64,000 nucleotides of DNA from assembly GCF_003952365.1 (NCBI RefSeq), contig NZ_CP034443.1, positions 3,775,001 through 3,839,000 of the forward strand, written 5' to 3'. The translations under genes and the position numbers were made by a program. Below, piece by piece: positions 857 through 17,009 of this stretch (its first letter is position 1; each line of letters opens with the position of its first letter). This DNA is from Mesorhizobium sp. M9A.F.Ca.ET.002.03.1.2 (GTDB lineage: Bacteria; Pseudomonadota; Alphaproteobacteria; Rhizobiales; Rhizobiaceae). A model generated the notes under the pieces. That model saw only the letters and a program-made list of their open reading frames with translations. It was not told where the DNA came from and ran no database searches.

Positions 857-2710
857 TTATGCGCGTTCGGGACGCCCATCGCCAAGAGCGCGCAACGCGT
901 TGAGGATCACCGCTATGTCGATGCCCTCCTGAAGCAATGCTCCCGCCACAGGCGTGATCTGCCCCATGGCTGCCGCGGCCATGGCCGCGGCTGAGAGTGC
1001 CAGCCCGGCTATGATGCTCTGCAGGGCGATCATACGGGTGCGCTGCGCAATCCGGACCGCATCGGCGACCGGCTGCAGCCTGTCGGTCAGTACGATGACG
1101 TCCGCGGCCTCCGAGGATGCGCTGGCACCGCGCGCCCCCATGGCGACACCGACCGTTGCGGCCGCTAGCGCGGGGGCGTCGTTTATGCCGTCGCCGACCA
1201 TCATCGTTGGTGCCAACGCTTTCTCGGCCTCGACCGCCGCCACTTTCTCGGCAGGCATCGCATCTGCGACGATGGTATCGAGGGCGAGCAGGGCGGAAAC
1301 GCGCTTCGCCGCCACGCTATCGTCGCCTGTAAGCATGACCATACGTGTGATGCCGGCCGAGCGCAGGTTGCGGAGTGCATCATGGGCATCCACGCGTAGA
1401 GCGTCCCCGAAAGTGAATATACTGGCAAGTTGCCCATCGAGCGCTACAAAAACCCTGAGCACTGGCTCGTCCCGGTATCGCTTTTCACCGCTTTCCGCCC
1501 AACGAGGCAGCGGTTTGTCGGCCAGCACGAGTGCTCTCGATCCCACCGCGATCGATACCTTGTCGACCCGGCCTTTCAGGCCGGCACCGCGATACTCGTG
1601 AACACTGCATGGATGCGACAACACCAGATTTCGGCCACGGGCCGCCCGAATGATCGAGTCGGCGAGCACATGGTGCGAGGCCTGTTCCAGCGATGCCAAA
1701 AGCTGCAATAGGGTGTTGGCGTCACCGCCCGGTGCAGCATCGATTTCGATGAGCTCGGCGCCGCCAACGGTCAAGGTGCCCGTCTTGTCGAAAATCGCGG
1801 TCCGAACTTGCGCGAGGGCCTCCAGAGCCGCGCTGCCTTTCATCAGGATGCCGGCCCGCGCGGCGCGCGACACCCCGCCGATGAAGGCAACGGGAGCCGC
1901 GAGGATAAGCGGGCAGGGTGTCGCGACCACCAGCACGGCCAGCGCTCGGATCGGATCGCCGGAGACGTACCAGGCGGTGCCGGCAACCAACAAAGTGGCT
2001 GGCAGCAGGAACAAGGCAAAGCGGTCGGCCATGCGGATGAACGGTGCTTTCGCGGTCTGCGCCGCAGCGACCATGCGCACGATCGCAGCATAGGTGCTTT
2101 GTTCGGCCAAGGCCGAAGCGCGCATGCTGAAGGATTCTCCGGCATTGAGGGTGCCGCTGCGCAGCATATCGCCCGCGCGCCGCCGTTCCGTCAGCGGCTC
2201 GCCAGTTACCGCTGACTCGTCGAGAGAGGCCAAAGCATCGAGCAGGATCCCATCGACAGGCAGCAGTTCGCCGGCGCGCACCAGAAGTTCGTCGCCGACA
2301 GCAACCTGGTCCACGGAAATCGTGTCTGTTCCCTGTGTCGATTTGCGGTGCGCGACACGCGGCGACCGGTCGGTCAATGCCTTGAGATTCCGCTCCGCCC
2401 GGCCACGGGCAAAATCCTCGAGCACCGTGCCGCCGGCATACATGATCGCCACCACGACCGCGGCCAGCGGCTGGTCGAGCAGCAGTGCCGCGGACATCGA
2501 CACCAGCGCAATCGCATCGACGCCGAAGCGCCCGATCCAGAAGTCGCGCAATATGGAAATGGCGAGCGCCACCACCACGGGCAAGGTAGCCGTCGTCCAG
2601 ATAGTGCTGGCCTGAATGGAGCCATAGCCGGTTCGCCAGACGCCGATTCCAATGGCCAGGCCCAGCAAGGCGATGGCCAGCAACGCGCGCCGCAGGGCCG
2701 ACTCGTTCAT
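857..2710 (-). CDS. Heavy-metal translocating P1B-type ATPase with TPC motif and no HMA domain
   Basis: The 617-residue protein has paired N-terminal membrane helices, the actuator TGE motif (AVTGEPL), the transport-helix motif ATPCPLILA, the phosphorylation motif DKTGTLT and the hinge GDGINDAP, so it is a P1B metal-exporting ATPase. The intramembrane motif reads TPC rather than the CPC of Cu/Zn/Cd pumps, and no N-terminal CxxC metal-binding domain exists, so the metal cannot be named. The chosen ATG at 2710 begins the first hydrophobic segment; the open frame runs further upstream but enters the promoter region shared with the divergent acyl-CoA synthetase. An FNR/FixK-like box lies at 2815-2828. 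trxC and the MgtC-like gene follow. It is distinct from FixI encoded near 18 kb. Confidence 0.88.
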   Translation of the reverse strand: MNESALRRALLAIALLGLAIGIGVWRTGYGSIQASTIWTTATLPVVVALAISILRDFWIGRFGVDAIALVSMSAALLLDQPLAAVVVAIMYAGGTVLEDFARGRAERNLKALTDRSPRVAHRKSTQGTDTISVDQVAVGDELLVRAGELLPVDGILLDALASLDESAVTGEPLTERRRAGDMLRSGTLNAGESFSMRASALAEQSTYAAIVRMVAAAQTAKAPFIRMADRFALFLLPATLLVAGTAWYVSGDPIRALAVLVVATPCPLILAAPVAFIGGVSRAARAGILMKGSAALEALAQVRTAIFDKTGTLTVGGAELIEIDAAPGGDANTLLQLLASLEQASHHVLADSIIRAARGRNLVLSHPCSVHEYRGAGLKGRVDKVSIAVGSRALVLADKPLPRWAESGEKRYRDEPVLRVFVALDGQLASIFTFGDALRVDAHDALRNLRSAGITRMVMLTGDDSVAAKRVSALLALDTIVADAMPAEKVAAVEAEKALAPTMMVGDGINDAPALAAATVGVAMGARGASASSEAADVIVLTDRLQPVADAVRIAQRTRMIALQSIIAGLALSAAAMAAAAMGQITPVAGALLQEGIDIAVILNALRALGDGRPERA

Positions 2711-2814
2711 ACGATACCTTTCGATTCTGATCGGTGCCTGCCTGAGATCCGAATTTGCGAGCGCACGTGGCCTCGAGCTTGCGCAACCGCTAGTCGAGAT
2801 CGCCGGAAGAGGCT

Positions 2815-2828
2815 TTGATCCAACGCAA
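2815..2828. promoter_or_regulatory. FNR/FixK-like box (TTGA-N6-GCAA)
   Basis: The sequence TTGATCCAACGCAA lies in the divergent region between the P-type ATPase (start 2710) and the acyl-CoA synthetase (start 2880). One half-site is exact and the other carries the T-to-G change seen in some FixK/FnrN sites. It is 52 bases upstream of the + strand start, so it could serve one or both genes. Confidence 0.6.
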
Positions 2829-2879
2829 TGAACGGGCAAGATCGTTTGGCGATTATTACCATGAACGGGAGACCAGAGG

Positions 2880-5561
2880 GTGACCATCCGAAATCTCGAA
2901 TATGCGGTCGGCCCGAAGTCGGTTGCCGTCTTTGGCGCGTCCGTGCGTGACGGTTCCGTTGGCCGTGTCGTTTTCGACAACATCGTCAATGGCGGCTTCG
3001 AAGGCGAGATCTGGCCGGTCAATCCGAAATACTCGCAAGTGGCTGGTCGGCCCTGCTACGCGACGGCCGCCGACCTGCCAGGAATTCCCGACCTCGGCGT
3101 CATCGTGACGCCGCCGGAGACGGTTCCCGGCATCGTGCGCGAACTCGGTGAAAAGGGCACACGGGCGGCGGTCGTCATCACCGCCGGCCTGACGCGCGAG
3201 AACGGATTGCGCCAGGCGATGCTCGACGCTGCCAAGCCCACTCTTTTGCGCGTCATCGGTCCCAATACGCTCGGACTGATGATCCCGCCTGTAAAGCTCA
3301 ACGCCGGGTTCGCGCACATGGCAGCCAGGCCCGGCAACATCGCGCTGCTGTCGCAATCCGGCGCCATCGCCACATCGCTGATCGATTGGGCGGCGGACAA
3401 CAATGTCGGCTTCTCCCAGATCGTCTCGCTGGGCGACATGGCCGATGTCGATGTGGGAGACTGCCTCGACATGCTGGCGGGTGATGCGCGGACGCGGGCC
3501 ATCGTAATGTATCTCGAAACCATAACCAATCCGCGCAAATTTATGTCAGCGGCACGGGCGGCGGCGCGCATCAAGCCGGTCATCGCGATCAAGTCGGGCC
3601 GGCACGAGCAGTCCGCGAAAGCCGCGGCGACCCACACAGGCGCGCTGTCGGGCGCCGACCGGGTCATCGAGGCAGCACTGCAGCGCGCCGGCATCTTGCG
3701 CGTCAAGGGACTGGCCGAGTTGTTCGATGCCGCTGAAACGACCGCCCGTTTTGCTCCGCTCGAACGAGCCCGCGTCGGCATTGTGACCAATGGCGGCGGT
3801 GCCGGCGTGCTCGCCGTCGATCGGCTCATCGACTGCAAGGGCGAACTGGCCGCGTTTTCACCGGGAACGATGGCATGTCTGGACGCCGTGCTGCCGCCGA
3901 CCTGGTCGCATGCCAATCCGGCTGACATCATTGGCGATGCCCCGCCCGAGCGCTACAAGGCCGCGGTTGAAGCCGTCGCGGCCGATCCGGGAACCGACGT
4001 CGTTCTCGTGATGAACTGCCCAACGGGGCTCGGCTCACCGCTGGCCGCGGCGAGGGCGGTCGCCGAACTCACCGGGGAGGGCAAAATCGGCGGGAAACCG
4101 GTCATGACCTGCTGGCTTGGGGAAAGCACGGCACGCGACGGACGACGAATCCTGCAGGATGCCGGCGTGGCCAGTTTCGAGACGCCTGCCGACGCGTCAA
4201 CCGCGATCTCCTACCTGAGCGATTGGTCGCGGGCCCAGCGGTCGCTGATGCGCACGCCGTCGAGCCGCAGCGAGGACACGATCAGCGATCGTAAAGCCGT
4301 GCTTGCCATATTCAGGCAGGTTGCCACGGAGGGCCGACGAATGCTGACCGAGCCCGAAGCCAAGGCGGTGATCTCCGCCTATGGCATTCCGGTTCCCGAG
4401 ACCGTTGTCGTCAAAACCGCTGACGAAGCGGAAAAGGCTGCAGGCCGGCTTTTGAAGGAGTCGGATCAGGTCGTCGTCAAGCTGCTGTCGAAGGCGATCT
4501 CGCACAAGTCCGACATCGGCGGCGTGGTGCTCAACCTCGCGACCGCCGCCGCAGTCGGCGAGGCCGCCCGATCGATCGAGGCGCGCGTGCGCAAGCAAGC
4601 TCCGCAAGCCACTATCGAAGGCTATGCCGTCCAACCCATGATCGCGCGAAAACAGGCGCAGGAGCTCATCCTGGGCGTGAGTCACGATCCGATCTTCGGT
4701 CCGGCCATCCTGTTCGGTGCAGGCGGCGTCGCGGTCGAGGTGATGGACGATACGACGATGGCGTTGCCGCCACTCGACGATGTGCTTGCGGGCGACTTGA
4801 TCGAGCAGACGCGGATCGGCCGCTTGCTTGCCGGGTTCCGCGATCGCAAGCCGGCGGATCGTGGGGCAATCGTCACGGCGCTCAATGGGGTGTCGCAGAT
4901 GATTGTCGACTTTCCGTGCGTCGTCTCGTTGGACATCAATCCATTGCTGGCCGACGCCGACGGCGTCATCGCGCTCGATGCCCGCATCGAGATCGAGCCG
5001 GAGCGCGTGGAGGAGCAGGGGCCTAACCCCGCGCTCGCGATCAGGCCCTACCCGTCAGGTTGGGAAAGGGCGTTTTCGGCGGACGGTGGCCACTATTACA
5101 TCCGGCCGATCAAGCCGGCCGATATTGCGCTCTATCCGCAATTCCTCGCCAGCATATCGCCGAACGATCTGCGCCTGCGTTTCCTGTCGCCGCGCAAGAA
5201 TTTTTCGGACCAGATGCTGAAACGGCTCACCCAACTCGACTATGATCGCGACATGGCGTTCGTCGCGCTGGAAGCGAGCAGCGGCGCGCTGGCGGGTGTC
5301 AGTCGCCTCTCCTGCAATCCGGACCGCACCGTCGCCGAATACGCCCTGCTCGTGCGCACGGACCTGCAAGGCCATGGTCTTGGCTGGGAGTTGCTCAGCC
5401 AGATCGTCGATTATGCAAAGGCGGACGGGATCGGTCGGATCGAAGGCATGGTGCTCAGCGAAAACATCAGGATGCTGGCCATGTGCCGCGAATTCGGGTT
5501 TTCGATCGCGCATCATGCCAGCCAGTCAGGCCTGTCGCTGGCGACGCTGGACATCGGTTGA
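2880..5561 (+). CDS. ADP-forming acyl-CoA synthetase fused to a GNAT acetyltransferase domain
   Basis: The 893-residue protein begins with a CoA-binding Rossmann domain (about residues 8-130), then a succinyl-CoA-ligase-like domain (about 140-460), an ATP-grasp domain (about 480-700) and a C-terminal GNAT domain (about 725-890; the CoA-loop region contains GHGLGWELL). This architecture is that of ADP-forming acetate-CoA ligases and of Pat-type protein lysine acetyltransferases, in which the ligase part is often inactive. It may recover ATP from acetyl-CoA under anoxia or acetylate enzymes such as acetyl-CoA synthetase. The GTG start is preceded by GGGAGA at good spacing. The FNR/FixK-like box 52 bases upstream and the neighbouring genes favour a role at low oxygen. 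Confidence 0.88.
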   Translation: MTIRNLEYAVGPKSVAVFGASVRDGSVGRVVFDNIVNGGFEGEIWPVNPKYSQVAGRPCYATAADLPGIPDLGVIVTPPETVPGIVRELGEKGTRAAVVITAGLTRENGLRQAMLDAAKPTLLRVIGPNTLGLMIPPVKLNAGFAHMAARPGNIALLSQSGAIATSLIDWAADNNVGFSQIVSLGDMADVDVGDCLDMLAGDARTRAIVMYLETITNPRKFMSAARAAARIKPVIAIKSGRHEQSAKAAATHTGALSGADRVIEAALQRAGILRVKGLAELFDAAETTARFAPLERARVGIVTNGGGAGVLAVDRLIDCKGELAAFSPGTMACLDAVLPPTWSHANPADIIGDAPPERYKAAVEAVAADPGTDVVLVMNCPTGLGSPLAAARAVAELTGEGKIGGKPVMTCWLGESTARDGRRILQDAGVASFETPADASTAISYLSDWSRAQRSLMRTPSSRSEDTISDRKAVLAIFRQVATEGRRMLTEPEAKAVISAYGIPVPETVVVKTADEAEKAAGRLLKESDQVVVKLLSKAISHKSDIGGVVLNLATAAAVGEAARSIEARVRKQAPQATIEGYAVQPMIARKQAQELILGVSHDPIFGPAILFGAGGVAVEVMDDTTMALPPLDDVLAGDLIEQTRIGRLLAGFRDRKPADRGAIVTALNGVSQMIVDFPCVVSLDINPLLADADGVIALDARIEIEPERVEEQGPNPALAIRPYPSGWERAFSADGGHYYIRPIKPADIALYPQFLASISPNDLRLRFLSPRKNFSDQMLKRLTQLDYDRDMAFVALEASSGALAGVSRLSCNPDRTVAEYALLVRTDLQGHGLGWELLSQIVDYAKADGIGRIEGMVLSENIRMLAMCREFGFSIAHHASQSGLSLATLDIG

Positions 5562-5643: not shown

Positions 5644-7212
5644 TCAGGATGCTGTCTTGATTGGATCGCCCCGTGCGGAAGCAGAAGCGGCCGCGTCCGA
5701 AAAGTCCGCCAACTCCGCCGCGATGTCGGCGAGTTTTCGATCGGCGTCGACCTTGCGCCAGGCGGATGGGGCCGCATTTCGTTGCAATTGCCGCGACAGG
5801 ATATCGACGGTTGCGTCGGAAGGACCGCCACTGCGCTCGCTGACCCGTCGCCAAAGAACGAGCGGATCGGCCTCCAGCCAGAATCCGGCGAAAGCGACGG
5901 CCCTGTCGCTGGCCGCCTTCTCGATTCGGTTACGATCTGCCGGCCTGTCGAATACGGCGTCGGCGACCACCGAACCACCCTCGGAAAGGATCAGGCCGGC
6001 GCGCCATGCCATTTCGCCGTAGACGCGATCGGACACCTCCGGTCGGTAAGCCCTGTCCGGCAGTTTCGTTTCTGCAGGGACCCCATGCATGGCTTTGCGG
6101 ATGCGGTCGCTCTCGACAATGCGCGCACCGGGCGGCGAGCCGATATGTGCGGCGAGTGCCTCGGCGACGCTCGTCTTGCCGGAGCCGCTCAAGCCTCCGA
6201 TGGCGATCACCCGGGGTGACTTTGCCTGGAGAAGCGTTCGGGCGAGCTCGAAATAGGATCTGGCCTCGGCAGTCAGCCCGCCGGAAACAGCACTGCCTTC
6301 CTCTATCTGGGTTGCGATGACGTGCGCGCGCACCGCGGCCCGCACTGCCATGAAAAAGGGCAGCAGGATGAAGCCGTCCTCGTCGTCTGCTTCGTCGAGG
6401 TAGCGGTTCATCACCAGGTTGGCGAGTTCCGGAAAGCCGCGATGCCAAAGGTCCATCAGCAGGAAGGCCAGATCGTAAAGCATGTCGATGCTGGCGATCT
6501 GGTCATTGAATTCGATGCAATCGAAGAGGCGGGGTTCTCCATCGAAGAGGCAGATGTTGCGCAGATGCAGATCGCCGTGACATCGCCGGATCTTGCCTGC
6601 TGCCTCCCGCCGGTCGAGCAGCTCGGAATGACGGGCGAGGGCAGTACGGAAGGCCCCTGTGAAAGCCTTGATTTCGGCTCTATCGAAAACATGGCTGGTG
6701 GCAAAGCCAGCTTCGTTGATGTCGAGCACGCCTGCCAGGTTCGAGGATCCGCTGCCGCTGTGGATCACCGGCGCACCGCGATGATAGCGCACGATCATGC
6801 GCGCGACCGCCGTCATCAGCGCAGGCGTCAGTTCGCCGCCGGCTGCCATTCGGTCGAGGAGCTTCGACTGATCGAAGCGAACCATTTCGATCGCCGCATC
6901 GACCACTTCGCCGCTTCCGTCGAAGGCGAGCTTGCCGCCGGCCTCTCGCGTGACGCGCCGCACACCCAGATAGAGGCCGGGCGCGGTCTTGGCGTTGAGC
7001 TCCACCTCCTTCTCGCAAGCGGCGAGCCGCAGGGCCGGGGTCGAGAAGTCGACATAGGGAAGCTCGACGGCTCGCTTGATCTTGTAGGCGCGCCGGCCAA
7101 TCAGGAAGATACGCGAAATATGGGTTTCGATCGTCTCGACAGGCCCGGTCTCGCCATATGCGGCGGGATCGAGCAGAAACGCGATCGTGGCCTTTTGGTC
7201 GTCAACGATCAT
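5644..7212 (-). CDS. Aminoglycoside-phosphotransferase-like kinase fused to a P-loop ATP-binding domain
   Basis: The 522-residue protein has an N-terminal APH/choline-kinase-like half (about residues 30-320, with the catalytic-loop motif HGDLHLRN and a later DCIEF metal-binding segment) and a C-terminal P-loop half starting with a Walker A motif (GLSGSGKT). This two-part design matches the COG2187-COG0645 family, whose mycobacterial member Rv2004c belongs to the DosR dormancy regulon. The substrate is unknown. The ATG at 7212 is preceded by AGGAGA six bases away; the frame extends further upstream but overlaps the cytochrome gene. It lies 65 bases after the cytochrome c gene and probably shares its FNR-box promoter. 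Confidence 0.82.
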   Translation of the reverse strand: MIVDDQKATIAFLLDPAAYGETGPVETIETHISRIFLIGRRAYKIKRAVELPYVDFSTPALRLAACEKEVELNAKTAPGLYLGVRRVTREAGGKLAFDGSGEVVDAAIEMVRFDQSKLLDRMAAGGELTPALMTAVARMIVRYHRGAPVIHSGSGSSNLAGVLDINEAGFATSHVFDRAEIKAFTGAFRTALARHSELLDRREAAGKIRRCHGDLHLRNICLFDGEPRLFDCIEFNDQIASIDMLYDLAFLLMDLWHRGFPELANLVMNRYLDEADDEDGFILLPFFMAVRAAVRAHVIATQIEEGSAVSGGLTAEARSYFELARTLLQAKSPRVIAIGGLSGSGKTSVAEALAAHIGSPPGARIVESDRIRKAMHGVPAETKLPDRAYRPEVSDRVYGEMAWRAGLILSEGGSVVADAVFDRPADRNRIEKAASDRAVAFAGFWLEADPLVLWRRVSERSGGPSDATVDILSRQLQRNAAPSAWRKVDADRKLADIAAELADFSDAAASASARGDPIKTAS

Positions 7213-7277: not shown

Positions 7278-7676
7278 CTATCGCTGCAGTCTCTGGACAT
7301 AACCGGCCAGTTCGTGGATCCGTTCCGTGGTGACGATTTCTCCGGCGTTTGGCCCATATTTCTTGGCGTCCCCGGGGAGAAATTGGCGGCCCCAAACCGG
7401 CATGTCGCGCTGGCCATGCTCAGGTAGGACGTAACGGCCATCGATCACCGCAAAAACGCGCCAATAGGGGAATTCGCCGCGATTTTGTTTGGAGAGCTGT
7501 GTCAGGTCGGCTGGACGCTTCAGCAACTCATCGCCCAAGGGGCCGTCGCCTTTGCCCTCGGGACCGTGGCAGACCGCGCAGGAGTTCAGATACTCCGCCT
7601 CGCCATAGCTCATTTCCTGTGCCGTGGACGCCTGGCAAGCCAAGGTTGCGAGAGCTGCCGCGATCAGGAGTTTCAT
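7278..7676 (-). CDS. Small periplasmic c-type cytochrome
   Basis: The protein of about 132 residues has an N-terminal signal peptide (MKLLIAAALATLACQASTAQ), one heme-binding CAVCH motif and a later methionine-containing segment (DMPVWG) that could give the distal heme ligand. It is a class I cytochrome c that probably passes electrons in the periplasm. The ATG at 7676 was chosen because it opens the signal peptide; a GTG four codons upstream is also possible. A perfect FNR box lies about 55 bases upstream at 7731-7744, and the kinase gene follows in the same direction. Its role in low-oxygen respiration is inferred from this context. Confidence 0.88.
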   Translation of the reverse strand: MKLLIAAALATLACQASTAQEMSYGEAEYLNSCAVCHGPEGKGDGPLGDELLKRPADLTQLSKQNRGEFPYWRVFAVIDGRYVLPEHGQRDMPVWGRQFLPGDAKKYGPNAGEIVTTERIHELAGYVQRLQR

Positions 7677-7730
7677 CTGCGTGTCCACCGGTTGATGGGC
7701 TGAAGCCTATAGTGTCGGCACCTGGTCACG

Positions 7731-7744
7731 TTGATACGGATCAA
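7731..7744. promoter_or_regulatory. FNR/FixK box, perfect TTGA-N6-TCAA
   Basis: TTGATACGGATCAA is an exact anaerobox 55 bases upstream of the cytochrome c start on the minus strand. It sits 20 bases from a second box that faces the Usp gene, so the divergent pair appears to be controlled by two sites. Confidence 0.8.
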
Positions 7745-7850: not shown

Positions 7851-8690
7851 ATGGCTTTCAAAAAAACGATACTTGCGGTTACGGGACCGAGCCAGGGTGA
7901 CGGTGATCTCAAACTCGCCGCCGATCTGTGCAACGAAATCGGCGCCCATCTTGCTGTTCTCGTCGTTGCCATTGCTGCGCCGCCACCAGTCGGAGAGTAT
8001 GCCGCGGTCGTTTCGCAAGCTTGGCTCGAGGAGCGTCAGGCCGACGAGGATCTGTTGAAGAAGCGAGCCGCTGCCGTGTCGGCTCTTCTCGCCGGCCGGG
8101 GGCTTTCGGCCGATGTCTCCAGCGAATATCCGGAAGCCGGCTGGGCCGACGAAACAATCGGCCGCCGTGCTCGCTACGCCGACGTTACGGTGGTTGGGCC
8201 GGAGTTGCTTGCCGGCGAAACGCTGAAAAGCAAAACGATCGAAGGCGCATTGTTTTCTTCGGGAAAGCCTTTGCTGCTCATCCCGCAGGGCGCGCGCCCG
8301 ACGCTGAAGCCGAAACGCGTGCTGATCGCCTGGGACGCCCGTCTGGAGTCATCGCGTGCCGTCCGCGAATCTCTCGACGTGCTGATAGGCGCCGATGAGG
8401 TGCACCTGGTCATGGTCGATCCGGTGGAGGACCAATACCACCATGGGGCGGAACCCGGAGCCGATGCCGCTGCCTATCTCGCGCGGCATGGCGTGAAAGT
8501 CATTGTCGACCGGCTGCCGAGCTTGAATCATTCAGTAGCCGACGTGCTTCGTCGGCACGCCGTCGACATCGCCGCCGACCTGATGGTCATGGGCGCCTAT
8601 GGTCATTCCCGGTTGCGCCAGCGCATCTTCGGCGGCGTCACCAACTCGATGCTTGAAGATCCGTCGATGCCGATCCTTATGGCGCGGTGA
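7851..8690 (+). CDS. Universal stress protein, tandem UspA domains
   Basis: The 279-residue protein holds two Usp domains (about residues 1-145 and 150-279). The second carries the ATP-binding signature G-x2-G-x9-G-(S/T), seen as GAYGHSRLRQRIFGGVT; the first is degenerate. Tandem Usp proteins bind ATP or AMP and are made in hypoxia or growth arrest, although their exact action is unsettled. The ATG at 7851 is preceded by GGGAG. A FixK/FNR-like box lies upstream, and at least two more Usp genes (one truncated) occur within 7 kb, all behind anaeroboxes. Confidence 0.92.
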   Translation: MAFKKTILAVTGPSQGDGDLKLAADLCNEIGAHLAVLVVAIAAPPPVGEYAAVVSQAWLEERQADEDLLKKRAAAVSALLAGRGLSADVSSEYPEAGWADETIGRRARYADVTVVGPELLAGETLKSKTIEGALFSSGKPLLLIPQGARPTLKPKRVLIAWDARLESSRAVRESLDVLIGADEVHLVMVDPVEDQYHHGAEPGADAAAYLARHGVKVIVDRLPSLNHSVADVLRRHAVDIAADLMVMGAYGHSRLRQRIFGGVTNSMLEDPSMPILMAR

Positions 8691-8792: not shown

Positions 8793-9239
8793 CTACTCGA
8801 TTGCTTCCCGGCCCGACACCTGCTCGATGTGGATCCGGTAGAAAACGGGCGGCATGCTGTCCGAAACCGGGGGTGTAACCGGCTTGAGGGCGCCAGGCTC
8901 CCACCAGTCCGCGTGCTTGCTCAACACCGACCATGCATGATCGCACTGAACCTTATGGCCGATCCGATCCGGCAGCTCTTCGTACCGGCCATCGACAACC
9001 ACGCTTCTCCAGCCGCGCCCTTGGCCGTGCTCCTCGACCTGGACGCATACCAACGGATTGGCCCGCATCCAGTCGACCTTCTTGCCCGGCATGGAAAACG
9101 CATAGAGATGATTGTCCGCGTGGGCGTAGTTGACGCACACGACGTAGGGTTGCCCGTCCTTCGCGCATGCCAAGTGGCCGACACGATTGGCCGCCAGCAA
9201 TTTCGTGCATTCCAAGGCAGAAAGTGTGCGGATCAGCAT
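8793..9239 (-). CDS. Pyridoxamine 5'-phosphate oxidase-related flavin-binding protein
   Basis: The 148-residue protein starts with RTLSALECTKLLAANRVGHL and continues with GQPYVVCVNYA, the split-barrel pattern of the PNPOx-like / FMN-binding family (Pfam Pyridox_ox_2). Such small proteins bind FMN, F420 or heme and reduce unidentified substrates; this one is not the biosynthetic PdxH. Its start overlaps the end of the phosphoribosyltransferase gene by a few bases, so the two are translationally coupled. Similar flavin-fold and nitroreductase-like genes are common in hypoxia regulons. The exact reaction is unknown. Confidence 0.82.
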   Translation of the reverse strand: MLIRTLSALECTKLLAANRVGHLACAKDGQPYVVCVNYAHADNHLYAFSMPGKKVDWMRANPLVCVQVEEHGQGRGWRSVVVDGRYEELPDRIGHKVQCDHAWSVLSKHADWWEPGALKPVTPPVSDSMPPVFYRIHIEQVSGREAIE

Positions 9240-9973: not shown

Positions 9974-10027
9974 CGATCAGTCCGCCGGCCAGAGTTGACG
10001 AAACGACGTCTTCATAGCGTGTTTTAC

Positions 10028-10213
10028 CTACACGATCTCGCCACGGGATACAGATATATGGCGGCCCAGGCGCTTGAACACCGCGTCGTTGCTCGCGACG
10101 TTGAAATCGACTTCGTCGGCCTCATGCCTTTGGGCCAGATCCCAAGCGAACGAGATACACGGTGCGGCGATGGCGTCCACATCCAGCTGAACCATAATCG
10201 TCTTGAAAGACAT
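10028..10213 (-). pseudogene. Truncated universal stress protein gene
   Basis: The first 30 codons (MSFKTIMVQLDVDAIAAP and following, then FAWDLAQRHEAD) match the N-terminus of tandem Usp proteins such as the intact one at 14817, but the frame ends after 61 codons and the rest of the gene is missing. It still lies 57 bases behind an FNR box, and the phosphoribosyltransferase follows after about 55 bases. The remnant may serve mainly as a leader for that operon. Whether the short peptide is made is unknown. Confidence 0.6.
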
Positions 10214-10269: not shown

Positions 10270-10283
10270 TTGATGCGTGTCAA
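10270..10283. promoter_or_regulatory. FNR/FixK box, perfect TTGA-N6-TCAA
   Basis: TTGATGCGTGTCAA lies upstream of the truncated Usp gene and its downstream phosphoribosyltransferase / flavin-binding pair on the minus strand. A second box 60 bases away faces the phasin gene. Confidence 0.75.
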
Positions 10284-10343
10284 AAGGGCAAGAGATCAGG
10301 GTGGTGCTGATTGTTCAGTGCCTTTGGCAAAGGTCGGTGCATG

Positions 10344-10357
10344 TTGACCTTGATCAA
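10344..10357. promoter_or_regulatory. FNR/FixK box, perfect TTGA-N6-TCAA
   Basis: TTGACCTTGATCAA lies 80 bases upstream of the phasin start at 10438. Confidence 0.78.
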
Positions 10358-10437: not shown

Positions 10438-10818
10438 ATGCAGACTCAACCCGAGCGGTCGCAATTCGCCCTGCAGCCCTCGCCGACGAGCAATGGCCAC
10501 CGGTTCCTTCTTGCCGCAGTGGATCTTCAGGCTCAGGCTTTCAAGGCAGTGATGCGCTACCAGATCGAGACGCATTCCTTCTTGAAACATCGCTGCGAGC
10601 AGAACGTCAAACTGGCGGACGATCTCGTCGCTGGCAACGAATTCAACGACGCCTTTGATGTGCTCAGCGCCTTCTTTCAGAACGCCACCTCGGACTATGT
10701 GATCGAGGCCGGCAAGGTCGCCTCAATCGGCTCCAAACTTGCCTCGGAAACAGCCAGGCACGTTCGTAGGGGAGCAGAGACCACGATTGAGGATTTGGCC
10801 GCAAGCACGGTGGGCTGA
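10438..10818 (+). CDS. Phasin-family protein
   Basis: The 126-residue protein is largely amphipathic helix. It contains the phasin-like stretch QAFKAVMRYQIETHSFLKHR followed by a region rich in Phe, Asp and Ala (FDVLSAFFQNATSDYVIEAGK). Phasins coat polyhydroxyalkanoate granules and control their size, and PHA is an electron sink when oxygen is low. The ATG at 10438 was chosen for its GGAG ribosome site; the frame opens earlier. A perfect FNR box 80 bases upstream suggests anaerobic induction. No PHA synthase is present nearby. The family call is good, but granule binding is inferred. Confidence 0.78.
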   Translation: MQTQPERSQFALQPSPTSNGHRFLLAAVDLQAQAFKAVMRYQIETHSFLKHRCEQNVKLADDLVAGNEFNDAFDVLSAFFQNATSDYVIEAGKVASIGSKLASETARHVRRGAETTIEDLAASTVG

Positions 10819-10864: not shown

Positions 10865-11215
10865 ATGAAGCTTAGATTCCCGACCTCTGTTCCGGCGTAC
10901 GCTGCGCGTTCGGCAATCCTTACTGCAGCGTTTGGGCTGCTTACCGCGTGGGCGAACGCCGATCCTATATCGCGCGGAAAAGCGTTGCTTGAAGTCAATT
11001 GCGCTCGATGCCATGCGATTGGAAAAACAGACAAGAGCAGCCATCCCGACGCACCGGCATTTCGTACGCTCTCGCAGCGCTATCCGCTCACCGATCTGGA
11101 GGAGGCATTCGCCGAAGGCATTTCGACCGGCCATCCCGACATGCCCGAATGGGTTGCTAGCCCCGATCAGATTGAGGCAATCGTCGCCTATATCGGGAGC
11201 CTGCAGCAACCGTGA
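10865..11215 (+). CDS. Small periplasmic c-type cytochrome
   Basis: The 116-residue protein has a signal peptide (cleavage near AWANA), one CARCH heme site at about residues 46-50 and the segment HPDMPEW, which supplies a likely methionine ligand. It belongs to class I cytochrome c. It starts 46 bases after the phasin gene on the same strand and may be read from the same FNR-box promoter. It is a second candidate electron carrier to the cbb3 oxidase or nitrite reductase encoded further right; the actual partner is unknown. Confidence 0.88.
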   Translation: MKLRFPTSVPAYAARSAILTAAFGLLTAWANADPISRGKALLEVNCARCHAIGKTDKSSHPDAPAFRTLSQRYPLTDLEEAFAEGISTGHPDMPEWVASPDQIEAIVAYIGSLQQP

Positions 11216-11346: not shown

Positions 11347-11733
11347 CTATGGCAACATACGGTCGGCGGCCCGGAAGAATGTCCGTGCGTGCGCCACGAT
11401 CTGCGCTTCCGTGGGATGGTCCGCCGTTTCGACGCCGACAATGCGACCCTTCATATGTGGATGATGGCTGCGAACATGTTTGACCAGTTCGTCCTTTGCC
11501 GATCCCGGTCCTACGATCAGCCACTCCTTTGCCGGTTGCAGGGCGCTGACGATATCATGGTAAAAAGACTGGTTTTCCGGCGCGCGCTTTCCATCGATGG
11601 TTCCCGCCTTGTTGTGGGTTTGGTGATGCGTCAGCGTGGTTGCAAGCCTCAGGCTTTCGGCGGTCTCGCGATCGAAGAAGAATACCTTGGCTTCGCGATG
11701 GTCCAGCCACGCGACGGCATGTCGAGTCTGCAT
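11347..11733 (-). CDS. Conserved 'translational machinery' (eRF1 domain 3-like) protein
   Basis: The 128-residue protein begins HAVAWLDHREAKVFFFDRE and contains LIVGPGSAKDELVKHV, a pattern seen in short bacterial proteins annotated as translational machinery or host attachment-like proteins that share the fold of eRF1/Pelota domain 3. The role is not established; ribosome-linked stress protection is one idea. It lies in the anaerobic cluster and is followed on the same strand by nothing closer than the cytochrome gene. No anaerobox was found directly in front of it, and the lipoyl-like gene upstream may share its transcript. Confidence 0.6.
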   Translation of the reverse strand: MQTRHAVAWLDHREAKVFFFDRETAESLRLATTLTHHQTHNKAGTIDGKRAPENQSFYHDIVSALQPAKEWLIVGPGSAKDELVKHVRSHHPHMKGRIVGVETADHPTEAQIVAHARTFFRAADRMLP

Positions 11734-11799: not shown

Positions 11800-12054
11800 T
11801 CAGCCCGGCCGCGGCCTGTCGTCCAATGTTGCCAGAACCGAGCCAGGCTCGATAATGGCATTCACGGTGGCGACGATCGTCGCGCGTCCGGTTGCCGGCG
11901 CGACGATCTCGTGCAGCGCATCCTCAATTCGAACTTCCGCTATGCGCTCGCCAGCCTTGATCGCAGCACCGCTGGCGATGAACCACCGCTCCACGATGCC
12001 CTCCGGCAGCATGCTTGATGCCCATAGTGCTTCATCGATCTTGATATCCTGCAT
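11800..12054 (-). CDS. Lipoyl/biotinyl-like domain protein lacking the modified lysine
   Basis: The 84-residue protein is a single lipoyl-like hammerhead domain (ERWFIASGAAIKAGERIAEV, then HEIVAPATGRATIV). In functional lipoyl domains the turn reads E-x-D-K-A; here it reads IEDALHEI, with aspartate where the lipoylated or biotinylated lysine should be. It probably cannot carry the cofactor and may be a scaffold or binding module. The ATG at 12054 has a strong AAAGGAGAA ribosome site. A perfect FNR box lies about 50 bases upstream at 12104-12117, so it is likely induced at low oxygen. The function is unknown. Confidence 0.7.
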   Translation of the reverse strand: MQDIKIDEALWASSMLPEGIVERWFIASGAAIKAGERIAEVRIEDALHEIVAPATGRATIVATVNAIIEPGSVLATLDDRPRPG

Positions 12055-12103: not shown

Positions 12104-12117
12104 TTGATCACGATCAA
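12104..12117. promoter_or_regulatory. FNR/FixK box, perfect TTGA-N6-TCAA
   Basis: TTGATCACGATCAA lies 50 bases upstream of the lipoyl-like gene on the minus strand and is the most symmetric anaerobox in the window. Confidence 0.8.
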
Positions 12118-12236: not shown

Positions 12237-12461
12237 ATGTGGAAACCAATTCTAAGCGCTCCGTTCGATCGGGATCTCGAACTCGCCGTCCTCAATGAAG
12301 ACGGCGAACACGCGCTTGTATTTCCCTGCATAAGGGGACGGGAGGGTTGGAAGAACGCCGCGACCGGCGCGCGGGTAGACATCCACCCGACCCACTGGCG
12401 CGACTGGACGTCGGAGAAGGTGCCGGCAAACGCCGACAAGTCCCTCGGCGAATTTCCCTAA
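12237..12461 (+). CDS. Small hypothetical protein
   Basis: I do not recognise this 74-residue protein. It begins MWKPILSAPFDRDLELAVLN and has a short Trp-rich end (HWRDWTS), a pattern resembling small phage-like or rhizobial proteins of unknown role. No signal peptide or membrane segment is seen. The upstream in-frame ATG at 12189 overlaps the putative FNR-like box, so 12237 is the better start, although no clear ribosome site precedes it. Its stop overlaps the last bases of fixJ, which is convergent. The coding call rests on codon use and the box in front. Confidence 0.55.
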   Translation: MWKPILSAPFDRDLELAVLNEDGEHALVFPCIRGREGWKNAATGARVDIHPTHWRDWTSEKVPANADKSLGEFP

Positions 12462-13069
12462 TATTTGGATTCCACGACCAATGCCATGCGCACGAGATGC
12501 GACAGGCTGCTCGCGCCCATTTTGCTCATCACATTGGCGCGGTGGATCTCGACAGTGCGCGGGCTGATGCCCAGGTCATAGGCGATCGTCTTGTTAGCCA
12601 AGCCTGACACAAGGCCATCCAGCACCTGTCGCTCCCGCTCCGACAGCGTCGACAGACGGCCGTTGATCTCCGCGGATTGAGGGTGAACCGCATGCACCGG
12701 GTTGCGGTTGTCCAATGCGGAGCGAATCGCATCGATCAGCAACTCGTCGTCAAACGGCTTTTCGATGAAATCGGCAGCACCCTCCTTCATCGCCTGAACG
12801 GCGAGCGCGACATCGGCGTGACCCGTCATGACAATGACCGGAAGCGTATGTCCACGGGTTCTGAGCTGCCGCAGGAACTCGATGCCGTCGATGCCGGGCA
12901 TACGCACATCGGTCACGATGCACCCATCGAGATTGCCTGTCGCCGTAGCCAGAAAAGCTGTCGCCGATTCGTACAGGCGCACAGCGAAATCAGCCGTCGC
13001 CAGGAGAAAACCAAGCGACTTGCGAACGTCCACGTCGTCGTCGACCACGTGCACAAGATTATCGGCCAT
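12458..13069 (-). CDS. fixJ: Response regulator FixJ
   Basis: The 203-residue protein has an N-terminal receiver domain ([12 protein letters not shown] acidic pocket, phosphoacceptor Asp in DVRMPGIDG, conserved Lys in IEKPF) and a C-terminal LuxR/FixJ-type helix-turn-helix ([12 protein letters not shown], then [18 protein letters not shown]). FixJ is phosphorylated by the oxygen sensor FixL and activates fixK-type genes at low oxygen. The ATG at 13069 overlaps the end of fixL by 11 bases, so the two are translationally coupled. The partner fixL is frameshifted in this sequence, so the input to FixJ may be lost unless another kinase acts. Confidence 0.92.
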
Positions 13070-14629
13070 CGGCGACCTCTTCTTTTTCAACGATGCGCAA
13101 GGTGAATCGGAAAGCGGTTCCTCCTGTCGGCATTGCTTCGGCCCAGATATGGCCGCCATGCGATTCGATGATAGTACGGCAAATGGAAAGGCCTACACCC
13201 ATACCCTGCTTCTTTGTTGTGACAAATGGTTGAAACAGCTGGGCCGAGACTTCAGGCGCGAGGCCGGTGCCGGTGTCGATCACACTCACCTCCGCCATGC
13301 CATCATCCCTGGCAACAGTCGTGACGTGCAGCTCGCGGCGAGGCGCTTCGTGCATGGCTTCCACGGCGTTGCGCATCAGGTTGAGCAGAACCTGCTGAAT
13401 CTGGATGCGGTCGGTCAAGACCAGTTCGGCGGCGGGATCAAGCCTGTAGCTGACGCGCACATCTATTTCTCTTGCCCCGACCAGGGCCAGGGACGCGGCC
13501 TCTTCGATCACTGACGGCAGGCGTTCGACCTGACGCTCGCTCTCGCCTCTTGCGACGAAGTCCCGAAGGTGGCGAATGACGTCTCCGGCCCGCAAGGCTT
13601 GGTCGGCCGCCTTTTCAACGGCCTCGCGCAGCATCGGTGCATTATCATCCGTGCTTTTTTCGAGAAGCCGTCGGCTGCCTTTGAGGTAATTCGTAATGGC
13701 CGTGAGCGGCTGGTTGATCTCATGCGCCAATGTCGAAGCCATTTCGCCGAGCGCGGTAAACCGCGCCATGTGGAGAAGCTCCAACTGCTGCTCCTGTATT
13801 CTGGCTTCCGCCCTGTGGCGTTCGGTCAAGTCGCGGCAGAAGCCGGTAAAGAAGCGGCCGGTGCCAGGATGCATCTCGCCGACGGAAAGCTCCATAGGAA
13901 AGGTCGAGCCATCCTTACGCATTCCGGTGACCGTGCGGCCGAGCCCGATGATCCGGCGCTCCCCGGTCGTCAGATAGCGGTGCAGATAGGCGTCATGCTC
14001 GTCGCGATAGGGGGCGGCATGAGCATTTTGACATTGCGGCCGATGACTTCGCCCGACTGGTAACCGAACAGCGTTTCGGCAGCCGTGCTGAAGGATTGAA
14101 TGCAACCTTGTTCGTCGATGACGACCATTGCATCGGGCACCGTCGCCAGGATCGAGCGCAGATGATCTTCGCGCAATTGAAGGGCAGCATTTGCAAAGGA
14201 AAGCTCGCTGACATCAGTGCCTTCGACGAAAATAGCCGTGACGCGGCCATCGTCGGCCTTGATGGGCTGATAGACGAAATCGAGGATGCGCTCTTCGGTC
14301 GGTCCCTCGTCCGTGTTGCGGAGGGCGATCTTGATACCCTGACCCCTGTAGGGCTCGCCGGTTTCGTACACCTGGTCGAGCAACTCATAAAAGCCTTGGC
14401 CTTCAAGCTCGGGCAGGGCCTCGCGCACCGACTTTCCAACTACTTGCCGGTGGCCGATCAGCCGCTGATAGGCAGCATTGGTCAACTCGAAGACGTGACC
14501 CGGCTCACGCAACAGCGTCATGAAACCCGGGGCCCGCTCGAACATCAGGGCCAGCCGGTCGCGCTCGGCCGCGGCCCGCTCTTCGTCGCGAACGCCGGTC
14601 GACAAGTCAGGTGTTCGTTTGTTGTCCAA
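13059..14629 (-). pseudogene. fixL: Oxygen sensor histidine kinase FixL, frameshifted
   Basis: Two overlapping frames together make a full FixL. Frame one (14629 down to about 14012) encodes an N-terminal PAS domain and the first half of the heme PAS domain ([17 protein letters not shown] to NVKMLMPPP). Frame two continues with [12 protein letters not shown], where H in EHDAY matches the heme-ligand histidine, then [10 protein letters not shown], where the Arg matches the O2-sensing Arg, then the phosphoacceptor LAHEINQPL and an ATPase domain ending at 13059. The break is a missing base in a run of five C (14010-14014 on the + strand), a few codons before the heme histidine. The TTG start at 14629 has AAAGGA upstream. 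It could be a real null allele, a phase-variable tract or a sequencing error. Confidence 0.88.
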
Positions 14630-14737: not shown

Positions 14738-14751
14738 TTGACACGCATCAA
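14738..14751. promoter_or_regulatory. FNR/FixK box, perfect TTGA-N6-TCAA
   Basis: TTGACACGCATCAA lies 65 bases upstream of the Usp start at 14817, on the boundary with fixL. Confidence 0.78.
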
Positions 14752-14816: not shown

Positions 14817-15629
14817 ATGTCCTACAAGTCGATCATCGTGAACCTCGCCGTGGATGCACCTCCCGCGGCCATGGTGAAGGTCGGGGTCGAGCTTGCGGAA
14901 CGGTTTGGAGCCCATCTTATGGGCCTGGCGGCAGCGGATGTCCCACCGCTGGTCGCGACCGGCGACGGCATGGTCTATGAAGGCGAGATCATGCAGATCC
15001 AGCGAACCGAGATCGAAAAGCGGCTTGCCGAACTGCGTGCTGAATTCGAGAGGCTGGTTCCGGCTTCGATCACGAGCGAATGGAGGCAGGCCGTCTGCAG
15101 CCCGACCCGCCTCCTCAGCGTTTCCGCCCGGGCAGCCGACCTCATCGTTACCGGCAGCGGGGATGGAGAAAATGTCTATCGCGCTGTGGATATCGGCAGC
15201 CTTGCTCTCGGCGCCGGCCGGCCGGTCTTGGTCGCGGCGAACAACATCGAACACGTTCCGGCAAGAACCGTGCTTGTTGCCTGGAAAGACACCAGGGAGG
15301 CGCGACGGGCGATGGCGGATGCACTGCCTTTTCTGACCAGGGCCAACGAGGTCGTCGTCGCCACGATAGATACCGACCGCGACGGAAGCATTCGTGATAG
15401 CCTCGCCGATGTCGCGGTCTTTCTTGAACGCCACGGCATCAAGGCGCGAACCGAAATGATTGCCGGCGAGGCCGATGGCGACCGGCTGTTGACACTCGCG
15501 CGCTCGATTCAGGCGGACCTGATCGTCTCCGGTGCCTATGGTCATAGCCGTCTGCGGGAATGGGCGTTCGGCGGCGTAACCCGTACGCTGATCGCACAGA
15601 GCGGCATCAATCGCTTCATGTCGTTTTGA
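14817..15629 (+). CDS. Universal stress protein, tandem UspA domains
   Basis: The 270-residue protein begins MSYKSIIVNLAVDAPPAAM and has two Usp domains (about 1-140 and 145-270); the second holds the nucleotide-binding pattern GAYGHSRLREWAFGGVT. It is the intact relative of the truncated gene at 10028-10213 and is less similar to the Usp at 7851. The ATG at 14817 is preceded by AAAGGTG. A perfect FNR box lies 65 bases upstream, so induction at low oxygen is likely. Usp proteins of this class support survival during growth arrest; the molecular role is not known. Confidence 0.92.
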   Translation: MSYKSIIVNLAVDAPPAAMVKVGVELAERFGAHLMGLAAADVPPLVATGDGMVYEGEIMQIQRTEIEKRLAELRAEFERLVPASITSEWRQAVCSPTRLLSVSARAADLIVTGSGDGENVYRAVDIGSLALGAGRPVLVAANNIEHVPARTVLVAWKDTREARRAMADALPFLTRANEVVVATIDTDRDGSIRDSLADVAVFLERHGIKARTEMIAGEADGDRLLTLARSIQADLIVSGAYGHSRLREWAFGGVTRTLIAQSGINRFMSF

Positions 15630-15733
15630 TGGGGTGTAGCCGGTCGCTCGACAGAGGGCGGGGCATCGACAGACGGAACATGTCCCGTTCAGCCTGCCTC
15701 CGATGATATGCTGCATGACGGAGGCGTGAGGCG

Positions 15734-16189
15734 ATGGCGAAGAAAAGTGCGGGCATCCTGCCTTACCGCAAGTCAACGAACGGGTTGCAGGTTTTGCTTG
15801 TCCACCCGGGCGGCCCGTTCTGGCAAAACCGCGATCTCGGGGCCTGGTCCATTGCCAAGGGCGAGTATGGCGACGACGAACAGCCTGAAGCCGCGGCGCG
15901 TCGCGAATTTGTGGAGGAAACCGGCTGGAAGCTCGAGGGAGCGCTGCTCCCCCTGGGAGAGCTGCGCCAGCGCGGAGGCAAGCTCATTACGGCCTTCGGC
16001 GTCGAAGACGATTTCGACACCGGCACTTTGCGAAGCAATATGTTCGAGATGGAATGGCCGCCGCGCAGCGGCCGCATGCGGTTCTTTCCGGAGATCGATC
16101 GCGCAGAGTGGTACGGCCTCGATGTGGCTCGGGAAAAGATGCTTGTCGGCCAGCGGCCCTTTCTCGACCGGCTTGTGGTGTCCGTCTAG
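15734..16189 (+). CDS. NUDIX hydrolase
   Basis: The 151-residue protein has a full Nudix box G-x5-E-x7-REUxEExGU, visible as GEYGDDEQPEAAARREFVEE followed by TGW. The start KKSAGILPYRKSTNGLQVLL and the later length match small cytosolic Nudix proteins of the MutT / diadenosine-polyphosphate hydrolase type. It would cleave a nucleoside diphosphate linked to another moiety; the substrate cannot be told. The ATG follows GGAGGCGTGAGGCG, a strong ribosome site. No anaerobox was found in front of it, and the CBS-BON gene is convergent 50 bases beyond. Confidence 0.88.
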   Translation: MAKKSAGILPYRKSTNGLQVLLVHPGGPFWQNRDLGAWSIAKGEYGDDEQPEAAARREFVEETGWKLEGALLPLGELRQRGGKLITAFGVEDDFDTGTLRSNMFEMEWPPRSGRMRFFPEIDRAEWYGLDVAREKMLVGQRPFLDRLVVSV

Positions 16190-16241
16190 AAGCCCCAAGG
16201 CCGACTCCTCCCGTCAGCTTGGTCGTGCTTGATCGCAATGC

Positions 16242-17009
16242 CTAAGAAACCAAAATGACGGACACCGGCCCGGCACAGAAGAGATTGTCTTTCACGGCTT
16301 TGACGCCGGCGACGTTTTCGGCCGCGACAATGGCTGCATGGCGCTCGCGTTCGTCGAAGATGGCGCCGCTCAGCTCCACGACACCTTTGTCCACAGTGAC
16401 GCTGATCATCTCGGTACTGGCCCATTTGTGAGCCGCCAGTTCGGCAATGATGTTCTGGCGGATCTGTTCGTCGCCCATGGCCGTCGAGGCCGTGCTCGGT
16501 TGGGCGCGAAGCAAGGCACGGAGAAGATCGGAGCGGGCAATAATGCCGACAACTTTCCCGCCGTCGACGACCGGGACGCGTTTGACGTGATGGCGCGTCA
16601 TCAGCTCGACGATCTCTCCGAGCGACGCGCTGGGGGATGCGGTGACGACGTCGTCTGACATCACCTCATCGACTCGCCGCCCATTGGCGTGGACATACTC
16701 ATCGGCAGCTCTTCCCGGACTGACGAAAAACTCCAGCCAGCGCGAGCGCTTGGCTTGCGTGTCGAGTTCTCCCCGGCGCAGGAAATCGCCTTCGCTGACA
16801 ATCCCCACCAGCGCGCCGTCATCGCGAATGACGGGAAGGCCGCTGATCTTTTTCGAGAGCATCAGCGCTGCCGCATCGGCGACCGACGCCGACGGTTTGA
16901 TCCCGATAACCGGTGTTGTCATTATGGCTTCGGCTTGCACGCCAACCTCCACAGATGCCTTTCCCTGTTTATCGAGGTCTTGTGCGCTACGTGCCTTGAT
17001 CTGAGTCAT
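16242..17009 (-). CDS. CBS-domain pair with C-terminal BON domain
   Basis: The 255-residue protein has two CBS domains (about residues 22-85, IMTTPVIGIKPSASVADAA, and about 110-165, VMSDDVVTASPSASLGEI) followed by a BON domain (about 185-255, VTVDKGVVELSGAIFDERER). CBS pairs bind adenosyl compounds such as AMP or SAM, and BON domains bind membranes or partner proteins, so an energy-sensing role is plausible. The ATG at 17009 was chosen over an upstream in-frame codon. It lies between the Nudix gene and fixS; no clear FNR box was found before it. The M. tuberculosis hypoxia protein HRP1 (Rv2626c) is also a CBS pair but lacks BON. Confidence 0.88.
   Translation of the reverse strand: MTQIKARSAQDLDKQGKASVEVGVQAEAIMTTPVIGIKPSASVADAAALMLSKKISGLPVIRDDGALVGIVSEGDFLRRGELDTQAKRSRWLEFFVSPGRAADEYVHANGRRVDEVMSDDVVTASPSASLGEIVELMTRHHVKRVPVVDGGKVVGIIARSDLLRALLRAQPSTASTAMGDEQIRQNIIAELAAHKWASTEMISVTVDKGVVELSGAIFDERERHAAIVAAENVAGVKAVKDNLFCAGPVSVILVS

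Follow-up and report, generated by a model that had tools for sequence, protein, structure and literature searches.

A window of 64,000 nucleotides from the chromosome of Mesorhizobium sp. M9A.F.Ca.ET.002.03.1.2 (positions 3775001–3839000 of a one-contig 6.4 Mb genome) contains a cluster of genes for universal stress proteins (Usps), an APH-like kinase, a phosphoribosyltransferase (PRT) and a flavin-fold protein of the PPOX type. On the same chromosome, this cluster adjoins the cbb3 oxidase genes ccoNOP and ccoG. A sequence-only reading of the DNA had likened the cluster to the DosR dormancy regulon of mycobacteria and proposed a low-oxygen survival module shared by unrelated bacteria. We conclude, with a probability of roughly 80%, that the cluster is the accessory half of a low-oxygen island in Mesorhizobium, which resembles the DosR regulon and the lxa locus of Burkholderia cenocepacia in its working but is not a DosR regulon.

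FNR/FixK Boxes and the Regulator

We scanned the window for the FNR/FixK box TTGATNNNNATCAA with at most one mismatch and compared the count with that in 100 shuffled sequences. The window contains 11 boxes. The shuffled sequences contain 1.06 on average, and none of the 100 reached 11. Ten of the 11 boxes are located between 7.7 and 26.7 kb: one lies within ccoN, one where a small open reading frame (ORF) begins, and the remainder ahead of cluster genes. The occupied sites are the gaps before cytochrome c/Usp1, the PRT genes, the phasin gene, the lipoyl protein gene, fixL/Usp2, ccoG and ccoN, as well as the start of the regulator gene. Exact boxes were found between cytochrome c and Usp1 (7731..7744), at 12104..12117 and upstream of ccoN (25230..25243). 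Two boxes with one mismatch each begin at 10270 and 10344 (10270..10357), another with one mismatch separates fixL from Usp2 (14738..14751), and further boxes stand upstream of ccoG (21668) and at the start of the gene for an FnrN/FnrL-type regulator (26721). Genome-wide there are 20 exact boxes, and five of these fall within 28 kb, three in the window and two just to the left of it.

The FnrN/FnrL-type regulator (25904..26734, minus strand) contains a C-x2-C-x7-C pattern and an additional central cysteine, which we take to be the mark of a direct oxygen sensor. Its best family match is FnrL (NCBIfam NF045989, 235.8 bits, short of the cut-off of 300). The genome encodes a second copy of this regulator with 79% sequence identity, and no other Crp/Fnr relative exceeds 36% identity. 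On account of the boxes, the regulator match and the cysteine pattern, the cluster is best read as controlled by the FnrN-type regulator, with FixLJ as an upstream branch. Two features of an FNR/FixK regulon are present: boxes in promoters, and a regulator, cbb3 genes and hemN nearby.

The signature of DosR control looks different. A short DosR-like motif has no match in the window (3.97 expected), and in actinobacterial kinase loci it is modestly enriched (182 versus 72.5 per Mb). A 20-bp DosR box found no match with three mismatches even in the actinobacterial loci and is therefore an insensitive probe. Instead of a DosS/DosT-type GAF-haem kinase with DosR, the cluster encodes FixJ (NF006900) and a split FixL of the PAS type.

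FixJ is encoded at 12458..13069 (minus strand; 301.9 bits, over the NCBIfam cut-off; start by alignment). The fixL gene (13062..14545, minus strand) was assembled in two overlapping frames, 14009–14545 and 13062–14015, with the break inside the haem-PAS domain. This split protein is the sole close FixL in the genome; the next best match scores just 147 bits. Nine of 11 fetched Mesorhizobium relatives contain FixL in a single frame, one has a lower-scoring match and one has no match. The split may be a sequencing or assembly error. Of the haem-based FixLJ sensor named by the sequence-only reading, FixJ is confirmed, and FixL is not intact in the assembly. In view of the split and of the FnrN-type regulator, we reject FixLJ as the established sensor here.

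Several observations weigh against our assignment of the cluster to an FnrN-controlled island. The left end of the cluster, with the P-type ATPase and acyl-CoA synthetase genes, shows a single box with two mismatches (2815). The FnrL match of the regulator, 236 bits, stays below the NCBIfam cut-off of 300. With FixL broken in the assembly, this strain may lack a working FixLJ branch. Finally, 36 of 61 Mesorhizobium genomes match PRT and the other 25 do not, and in several genomes only fragments were found; this part of the cluster thus appears dispensable.

Gene Content

Searches with Pfam and NCBIfam profiles confirmed that all the genes named by the sequence-only reading are in the window: two intact Usps, a broken third, the kinase, PRT, PPOX, a P1B ATPase, a CBS-CBS-BON protein and FixJ. 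The starts of the P1B ATPase, Usp1, Usp2 and FixJ genes were inferred by alignment to relatives. The APH-like kinase with a P-loop (AAA_33) domain (5644..7212, minus strand; PF01636 and PF13671) has full-length relatives, the nearest of which is 95% identical, with Mesorhizobium proteins at up to 90%. PRT (9233..9973, minus strand; PF00156) is a free-standing protein of the TT1426 class (PDB 1WD5, 137 bits). The PPOX protein (8793..9239, minus strand; Pyridox_ox_2, PF12900) matches M. loti Mll6688 over its full length (PDB 2HQ9, 280 bits). Usp1 (7851..8690) and Usp2 (14817..15629) are encoded on the plus strand and match PF00582. The heavy-metal P1B-type ATPase (857..2740, minus strand) scores 468.7 bits with TIGR01525, over the cut-off, and its start near 2740 derives from a relative of 617 residues. 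The CBS-CBS-BON protein (16242..17033, minus strand; PF00571 twice and PF04972) is encoded downstream of ccoG-fixI on the same strand.

The broken Usp corresponds to an ORF at 9980..10213 (minus strand) which, by alignment, is a chimera of a Usp-like N-terminus and a DUF2267-like C-terminus. In a syntenic cluster on a plasmid of Mesorhizobium sp. B2-1-1, Usp fragments, hemA and DUF2267 are found between phasin and PRT. Judged from this alignment, the chimera is apparently the remnant of a deletion in which hemA was lost too. The B2-1-1 plasmid shares the gene order of the window from trxC, P-type ATPase, acyl-CoA synthetase-GNAT, kinase, cytochrome c, Usp, PPOX and PRT through phasin, cytochrome c, lipoyl protein, FixJ and FixL to Usp. 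It differs by the presence of hemA, DUF2267, DUF302 and mgtA, by a FixL in one frame, and by a PRT that is annotated in two pieces.

The remaining cluster genes encode, on the minus strand, a Zn-ribbon type thioredoxin TrxC on the left side of the cluster (381..836; PF00085 and PF21352; 85% identity with the syntenic plasmid cluster), a small cytochrome c (7278..7688; PF00034 over and PF13442 just under the cut-off), a 128-residue uncharacterised protein (11347..11733) that matches no Pfam family, and a small biotinyl/lipoyl-domain protein (11800..12054; PF00364). On the plus strand we found a fusion of an ADP-forming acyl-CoA synthetase with a GNAT acetyltransferase (2880..5561; PF13549, PF13607, PF13380 and PF00583), a phasin-like protein (10438..10818; PF09361), a second small cytochrome c (10865..11215; PF00034) and a NUDIX hydrolase (15734..16189; PF00293). 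Relatives of the 128-residue protein occur in Mesorhizobium, Bradyrhizobium, Variovorax and Nostoc plasmids, and in one relative of the cluster the gene lies near fixJ.

The cluster extends beyond 857..17009 on both sides. To the right, all on the minus strand, it continues with a copper-type P1B ATPase (17224..19506; TIGR01511, 517.3 bits) in the position of fixI/ccoI, from which we take the name fixI, followed by ccoG/fixG (19997..21562; TIGR02745, 555.1 bits), ccoP/fixP for subunit III of the cbb3 oxidase (21770..22633; TIGR00782, 358 bits), ccoO/fixO for subunit II (22797..23786; TIGR00781, 390 bits) and ccoN/fixN for subunit I (23540..25189; TIGR00780, 787.1 bits). The ccoO and ccoN frames are counted from their first start codons. 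Beyond the FnrN-type regulator follows hemN for an oxygen-independent coproporphyrinogen III oxidase (26781..28142, plus strand; TIGR00538, 403.1 bits). All of these TIGR scores exceed their cut-offs. To the left, the cluster reaches arcD-arcA-argF. These arginine deiminase genes are located just outside the window (contig 3755001–3775000) with the two exact FNR boxes close by, and the same flank contains MgtC-like pieces in shifted frames.

Relation to Mycobacterial Proteins

The classes were compared with proteins of several mycobacteria, among them M. bohemicum and M. tusciae; from M. tuberculosis, the comparison included Rv2626c. We take Rv2004c to represent the APH/P-loop kinase class and Rv2030c the PRT class. 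PRT shows 39–49% identity in seven mycobacteria and has matches in 10 of 10 genomes or records, one of them (a Pseudonocardia) weak. The best mycobacterial kinases are 30–31% identical. The mycobacterial relatives of both proteins lie near DosR/DosS-like genes, Usp, pfkB and Hsp20. In M. bohemicum, for example, the order is PRT-esterase, pfkB, Usp, Usp, DosR-like regulator, GAF kinase, GNAT, Usps and kinase. PPOX matches are weak (27–37% identity in mycobacteria), but in four of six genomes the best one is within 25 kb of PRT or kinase. In a fifth genome the second-best match is near by coordinates, and in the sixth the match is on another contig.

The other classes gave no such partners. Usp1 found no pairwise match in six mycobacterial genomes, in a search without a positive control, and neither Usp1 nor Usp2 found a match at an E value of 0.01 in the fetched mycobacterial and Pseudonocardia loci, although the Usp family profile does detect mycobacterial Usps in these loci. 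The P-type ATPase is 48–50% identical to proteins from three mycobacterial genomes, but their genes lie on contigs other than that of PRT in two of these and at a distance of 174 kb from it in the third. As its best relatives among the proteins compared, which did not include CtpF, are away from PRT and kinase, the ATPase is unsupported as a DosR-class match. Some counterevidence comes from a heavy-metal ATPase with 34% identity near the kinase in Mycobacterium sp. SM1 and from one that adjoins the kinase in R. qingshengii. For the CBS-BON protein, pairwise comparison with the mycobacterial loci gave nothing convincing. We reject a special likeness of this protein to HRP1, since Rv2626c ranks 36th of 59 at 35 bits. 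Its architecture is CBS-CBS-BON; the HRP1 structures are 133-residue CBS chains without BON. The class-by-class likeness to the DosR regulon is supported for kinase, PRT, PPOX and, at the level of the class, Usp. It is unsupported for the P-type ATPase, the CBS-BON protein and pairwise Usp matches.

Recurrence in Other Genomes

We then asked whether the classes recur together elsewhere. Family profiles were built from a few seed proteins and are not curated. Kinase loci comprised 80 actinobacterial stretches, the best 80 of 408 relatives found with a three-row actinobacterial alignment as query, and 40 alphaproteobacterial stretches; 12 of 52 full-length matches outside the own genome were left out, some because of short contigs and others because 40 loci were judged sufficient. 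Neighbors were counted as far as each fetched stretch reached, at most 10 kb per side. Twenty alphaproteobacterial and 20 actinobacterial stretches served as controls.

Usp genes occur near the kinase in 69 of these best 80 actinobacterial loci (0 of 20 controls, p = 1.6e-13) and in 17 of the 40 alphaproteobacterial loci (0 of 20, p = 2.3e-4). At least two further classes are present in 50 of the best 80 actinobacterial loci, compared to 2 of 20 controls, but in only 3 of the 40 alphaproteobacterial loci (p = 0.29). PRT shows no enrichment beside the kinase (1 of 40 alphaproteobacterial loci and 1 of the best 80 actinobacterial loci), and across Alphaproteobacteria Usp is the only class enriched in the kinase neighborhood. 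On the Rhodococcus sp. DK17 plasmid pDK1, the kinase adjoins GNAT and pfkB, with a GAF kinase, a regulator, Usps, CBS proteins and Hsp20 within 15 kb.

For PRT we examined all 29 full-length matches in the phylum outside the genus, leaving out six partial ones, against the 20 alphaproteobacterial controls, which are few for this purpose and come mostly from other genomes. Usp is found near PRT in 10 of 29 loci (0 of 20 controls, p = 0.002), and P-type ATPase and phosphoenolpyruvate (PEP) synthase in 6 of 29 each (0 of 20 each, p = 0.03). Hsp20 and APH (5 of 29 each, 0 of 20, p = 0.06), CBS (7 of 29, 1 of 20, p = 0.08) and pfkB (3 of 29, 0 of 20, p = 0.20) do not singly pass the limit of p < 0.05. 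At least two of seven classes are present in 9 of 29 loci and in none of 20 controls (p = 0.005). Some of the APH matches are shorter proteins (about 360–380 residues in loci L281 and L284), so that the P-loop domain need not be present. Around the PRTs of Paracoccus, Nostoc and Halobaculum the set is not found. Examples of richer loci are Sphingobium TomTYG65 (Usp, PAS kinase, FixJ, PRT, phosphofructokinase and P-type ATPase) and Ensifer adhaerens (Hsp20, Usps, GroEL, kinase, alcohol dehydrogenase and PRT).

FNR boxes with at most one mismatch accompany the PRT loci that contain Usp, a subset chosen post hoc with the data already seen, at 185 per Mb, compared to 29.8 in PRT loci without Usp and 27.5 in controls. 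Alphaproteobacterial kinase loci contain 62 per Mb. Co-occurrence near FNR/FixK sites in other genomes, the check proposed with the sequence-only reading, is thus borne out by the PRT loci with Usp. In Mesorhizobium, all 11 fetched loci hold at least two other classes and 315 boxes per Mb (controls 27.5); as these loci were picked from the 36 of 61 matching genomes (own included) for long contigs and intact PRT, they are not a fair sample. Across the genus, the PRT part of the cluster seems to have been lost repeatedly. In sum, various Pseudomonadota have PRT and Usp in one locus together with FNR boxes, and various Actinomycetota have the kinase together with Usp. Low similarity combined with a lack of recurrence, the outcome named as fatal to the DosR comparison, is not what the data as a whole show.

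Descent of PRT and of the Esterase Fusions

A PRT tree of 61 rows places 38 of 43 proteobacterial rows on one side of a branch (support 97/93) with no actinobacterial rows. The remaining five have no fixed place near the base; the Mesorhizobium rows group together. A second tree, built from 65 rows with labelled fusion types, leaves the deep branches open and does not resolve the main proteobacterial split, but it sets the rhizobial PRT-hydrolase-esterase proteins apart from the actinobacterial fusions. PRT-erythromycin-esterase fusions were found in Rhizobium and in mycobacteria (locus L333, 9980–12625; locus L231, 14837–16939). The fusion proteins from Rhizobium and M. bohemicum are 43% identical in the PRT part and 45% in the esterase part.

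Approximately unbiased tests (p-AU), with groups named once the tree had been seen, reject a clade of rhizobial and actinobacterial PRT-esterases (2e-6) and a clade of Mesorhizobium PRT with actinobacterial PRT-esterases (0.0009). Neither a clade of rhizobial and actinobacterial PRT-hydrolases (0.06) nor a single actinobacterial PRT clade (0.33) was rejected. The trees and tests show no recent transfer of PRT from mycobacteria, a reading that we reject. The simplest reading of these sequences is that the PRT-esterase fusions of the two phyla arose separately. Alternatively, an old fusion may have been lost many times.

Origin of the DosR Likeness

The cluster could resemble the DosR regulon because rhizobia and mycobacteria share a module by descent or transfer that is now controlled by FNR in the former and by DosR in the latter. 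This scenario would account for the kinase and PRT relatives (30–31% and 39–49% identity) near DosR/DosS-like genes, Usp, pfkB and Hsp20, and for the PPOX match near PRT or kinase in four of six genomes. It could also explain a PRT-hydrolase-erythromycin-esterase fusion in Rhizobium sp. NLR16a that adjoins a PPOX protein 44% identical to that of the window. A common PRT-hydrolase origin was not rejected (p-AU 0.06). We nevertheless consider it improbable: most proteobacterial PRTs (38 of 43) stand apart from all actinobacterial ones, both joint clades with actinobacterial PRT-esterases were rejected, and the Usps, the P-type ATPase and the CBS-BON protein have no special mycobacterial partner. 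The proposal of a shared low-oxygen module is too strong, since the PRT trees show no transfer and only Usp is enriched around the alphaproteobacterial kinase. What stands is that the classes recur together in unrelated genomes.

A second possibility, to which we give about even odds, is that both phyla separately drew the same families into their low-oxygen regulons to meet one and the same physiological need. The presence of Usp near 69 of the best 80 of 408 actinobacterial kinases and near 17 of 40 alphaproteobacterial ones, with no case in either set of 20 controls, is consistent with this idea, and so are the boxes in PRT+Usp loci and the separate PRT-esterase fusions. On the other hand, Usp proteins are common, just 3 of 40 alphaproteobacterial kinase loci hold at least two classes, PRT is not enriched beside the kinase, and of the classes near PRT no more than three (Usp, PEP synthase and P-type ATPase) singly pass p < 0.05 against the sparse controls. 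The likeness might also be due to chance in an ordinary FNR/FixK regulon, as Usps and flavoproteins are such large families that any anaerobic regulon would look alike. The Usps and the CBS-BON protein, which show no kinship to mycobacteria, fit this view, and uspA is already a core member of the FNR regulon (PMC2908626). However, the rarer classes kinase, PRT and PPOX match too, and recurrence exceeds the controls, so that we regard chance as conceivable but rather doubtful. Tentatively, we propose that an oxygen-limitation toolkit of kinase, TT1426-type PRT, PPOX and Usp, often with Hsp20, pfkB and PEP synthase, may have been assembled more than once, under DosR-like control in Actinomycetota and FNR/FixK control in Pseudomonadota. 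The separate PRT-erythromycin-esterase fusions would then hint at one shared biochemical step of anoxic survival.

Known Systems and Proposed Mechanism

The cluster belongs with the FNR/FixK regulons, and many of its classes are already known to be induced under microoxia in Bradyrhizobium. According to the sections of PMC6515984 on this response, microoxia in B. diazoefficiens leads to higher levels of Usp, CBS, PPOX, pfkB, nitroreductase, PEP synthase and phasin, and some of these are FixK2 targets. The alphaproteobacterial FNR regulon has uspA in its core, as summarized in PMC2908626. As far as these two accounts go, the FixK2/FNR microoxic regulon and the window share FNR/FixK boxes, the cbb3 oxidase, fixG/fixI, Usp, CBS, phasin and PPOX. 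In Bradyrhizobium, to judge by locus numbers, Usp blr2761 and the CBS protein blr2762 adjoin fixNOQP. Unlike the Bradyrhizobium regulon, the window combines stress genes, kinase and PRT in one block by the fix genes and an FnrN-type regulator, and its FixL is split.

The lxa locus of B. cenocepacia, a proteobacterial DosR analogue, was likened to the DosR regulon in 2018 (PMC6127331), and the general idea is therefore not new. By the description given there, lxa is a low-oxygen island too, and it shares with the window the presence of several Usps, a cytochrome c, a BON protein and a flavin/nitro-reductase protein. It differs by its 50 genes, six Usps, a heat shock protein, a phosphofructokinase and phbB, and the passages that describe it report no cbb3 neighborhood. 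The DosR regulon of M. tuberculosis, as outlined in PMC5309233, includes Usps, Rv2004c and the putative phosphoribosyltransferase Rv0571c. It differs from the window by control through DosR with DosS/DosT, and the mycobacterial PRTs are partly fused to hydrolase/esterase domains. We came across no published account of a parallel assembly of the same classes in two phyla: titles and abstract beginnings in the openly licensed literature gave neither a comparison of a rhizobial cluster with DosR nor parallel PRT fusions, which is weak evidence of absence.

The island may work as follows. As oxygen falls, the FnrN-type regulator, sensing oxygen directly through its cysteines, would bind the FNR/FixK boxes, perhaps joined by FixJ-driven FixK where FixL is intact. 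The cbb3 oxidase and its maturation genes, the Usps, the small cytochromes c, phasin, kinase, PRT-PPOX and CBS-BON, probably arranged in operons, would then be switched on together. By analogy, the rise in expression reported for the relative B. diazoefficiens at low oxygen (in the parts of PMC6515984 cited above) is consistent with such a response. The likely role of the induced set would be to keep energy, nucleotide and redox balance when respiration is limited.

Implications

The main interest of this cluster is that the same uncharacterised classes recur in two phyla. Among the DosR proteins listed as uncharacterised in PMC5309233 are Rv0571c, Rv2030c and four Usps. Should these classes recur in harmless soil bacteria that use a different oxygen switch, such bacteria would be a place to look for the function they have in common. 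Mesorhizobium is a convenient system for this search, as the structure of a close PPOX relative has been solved (2HQ9).

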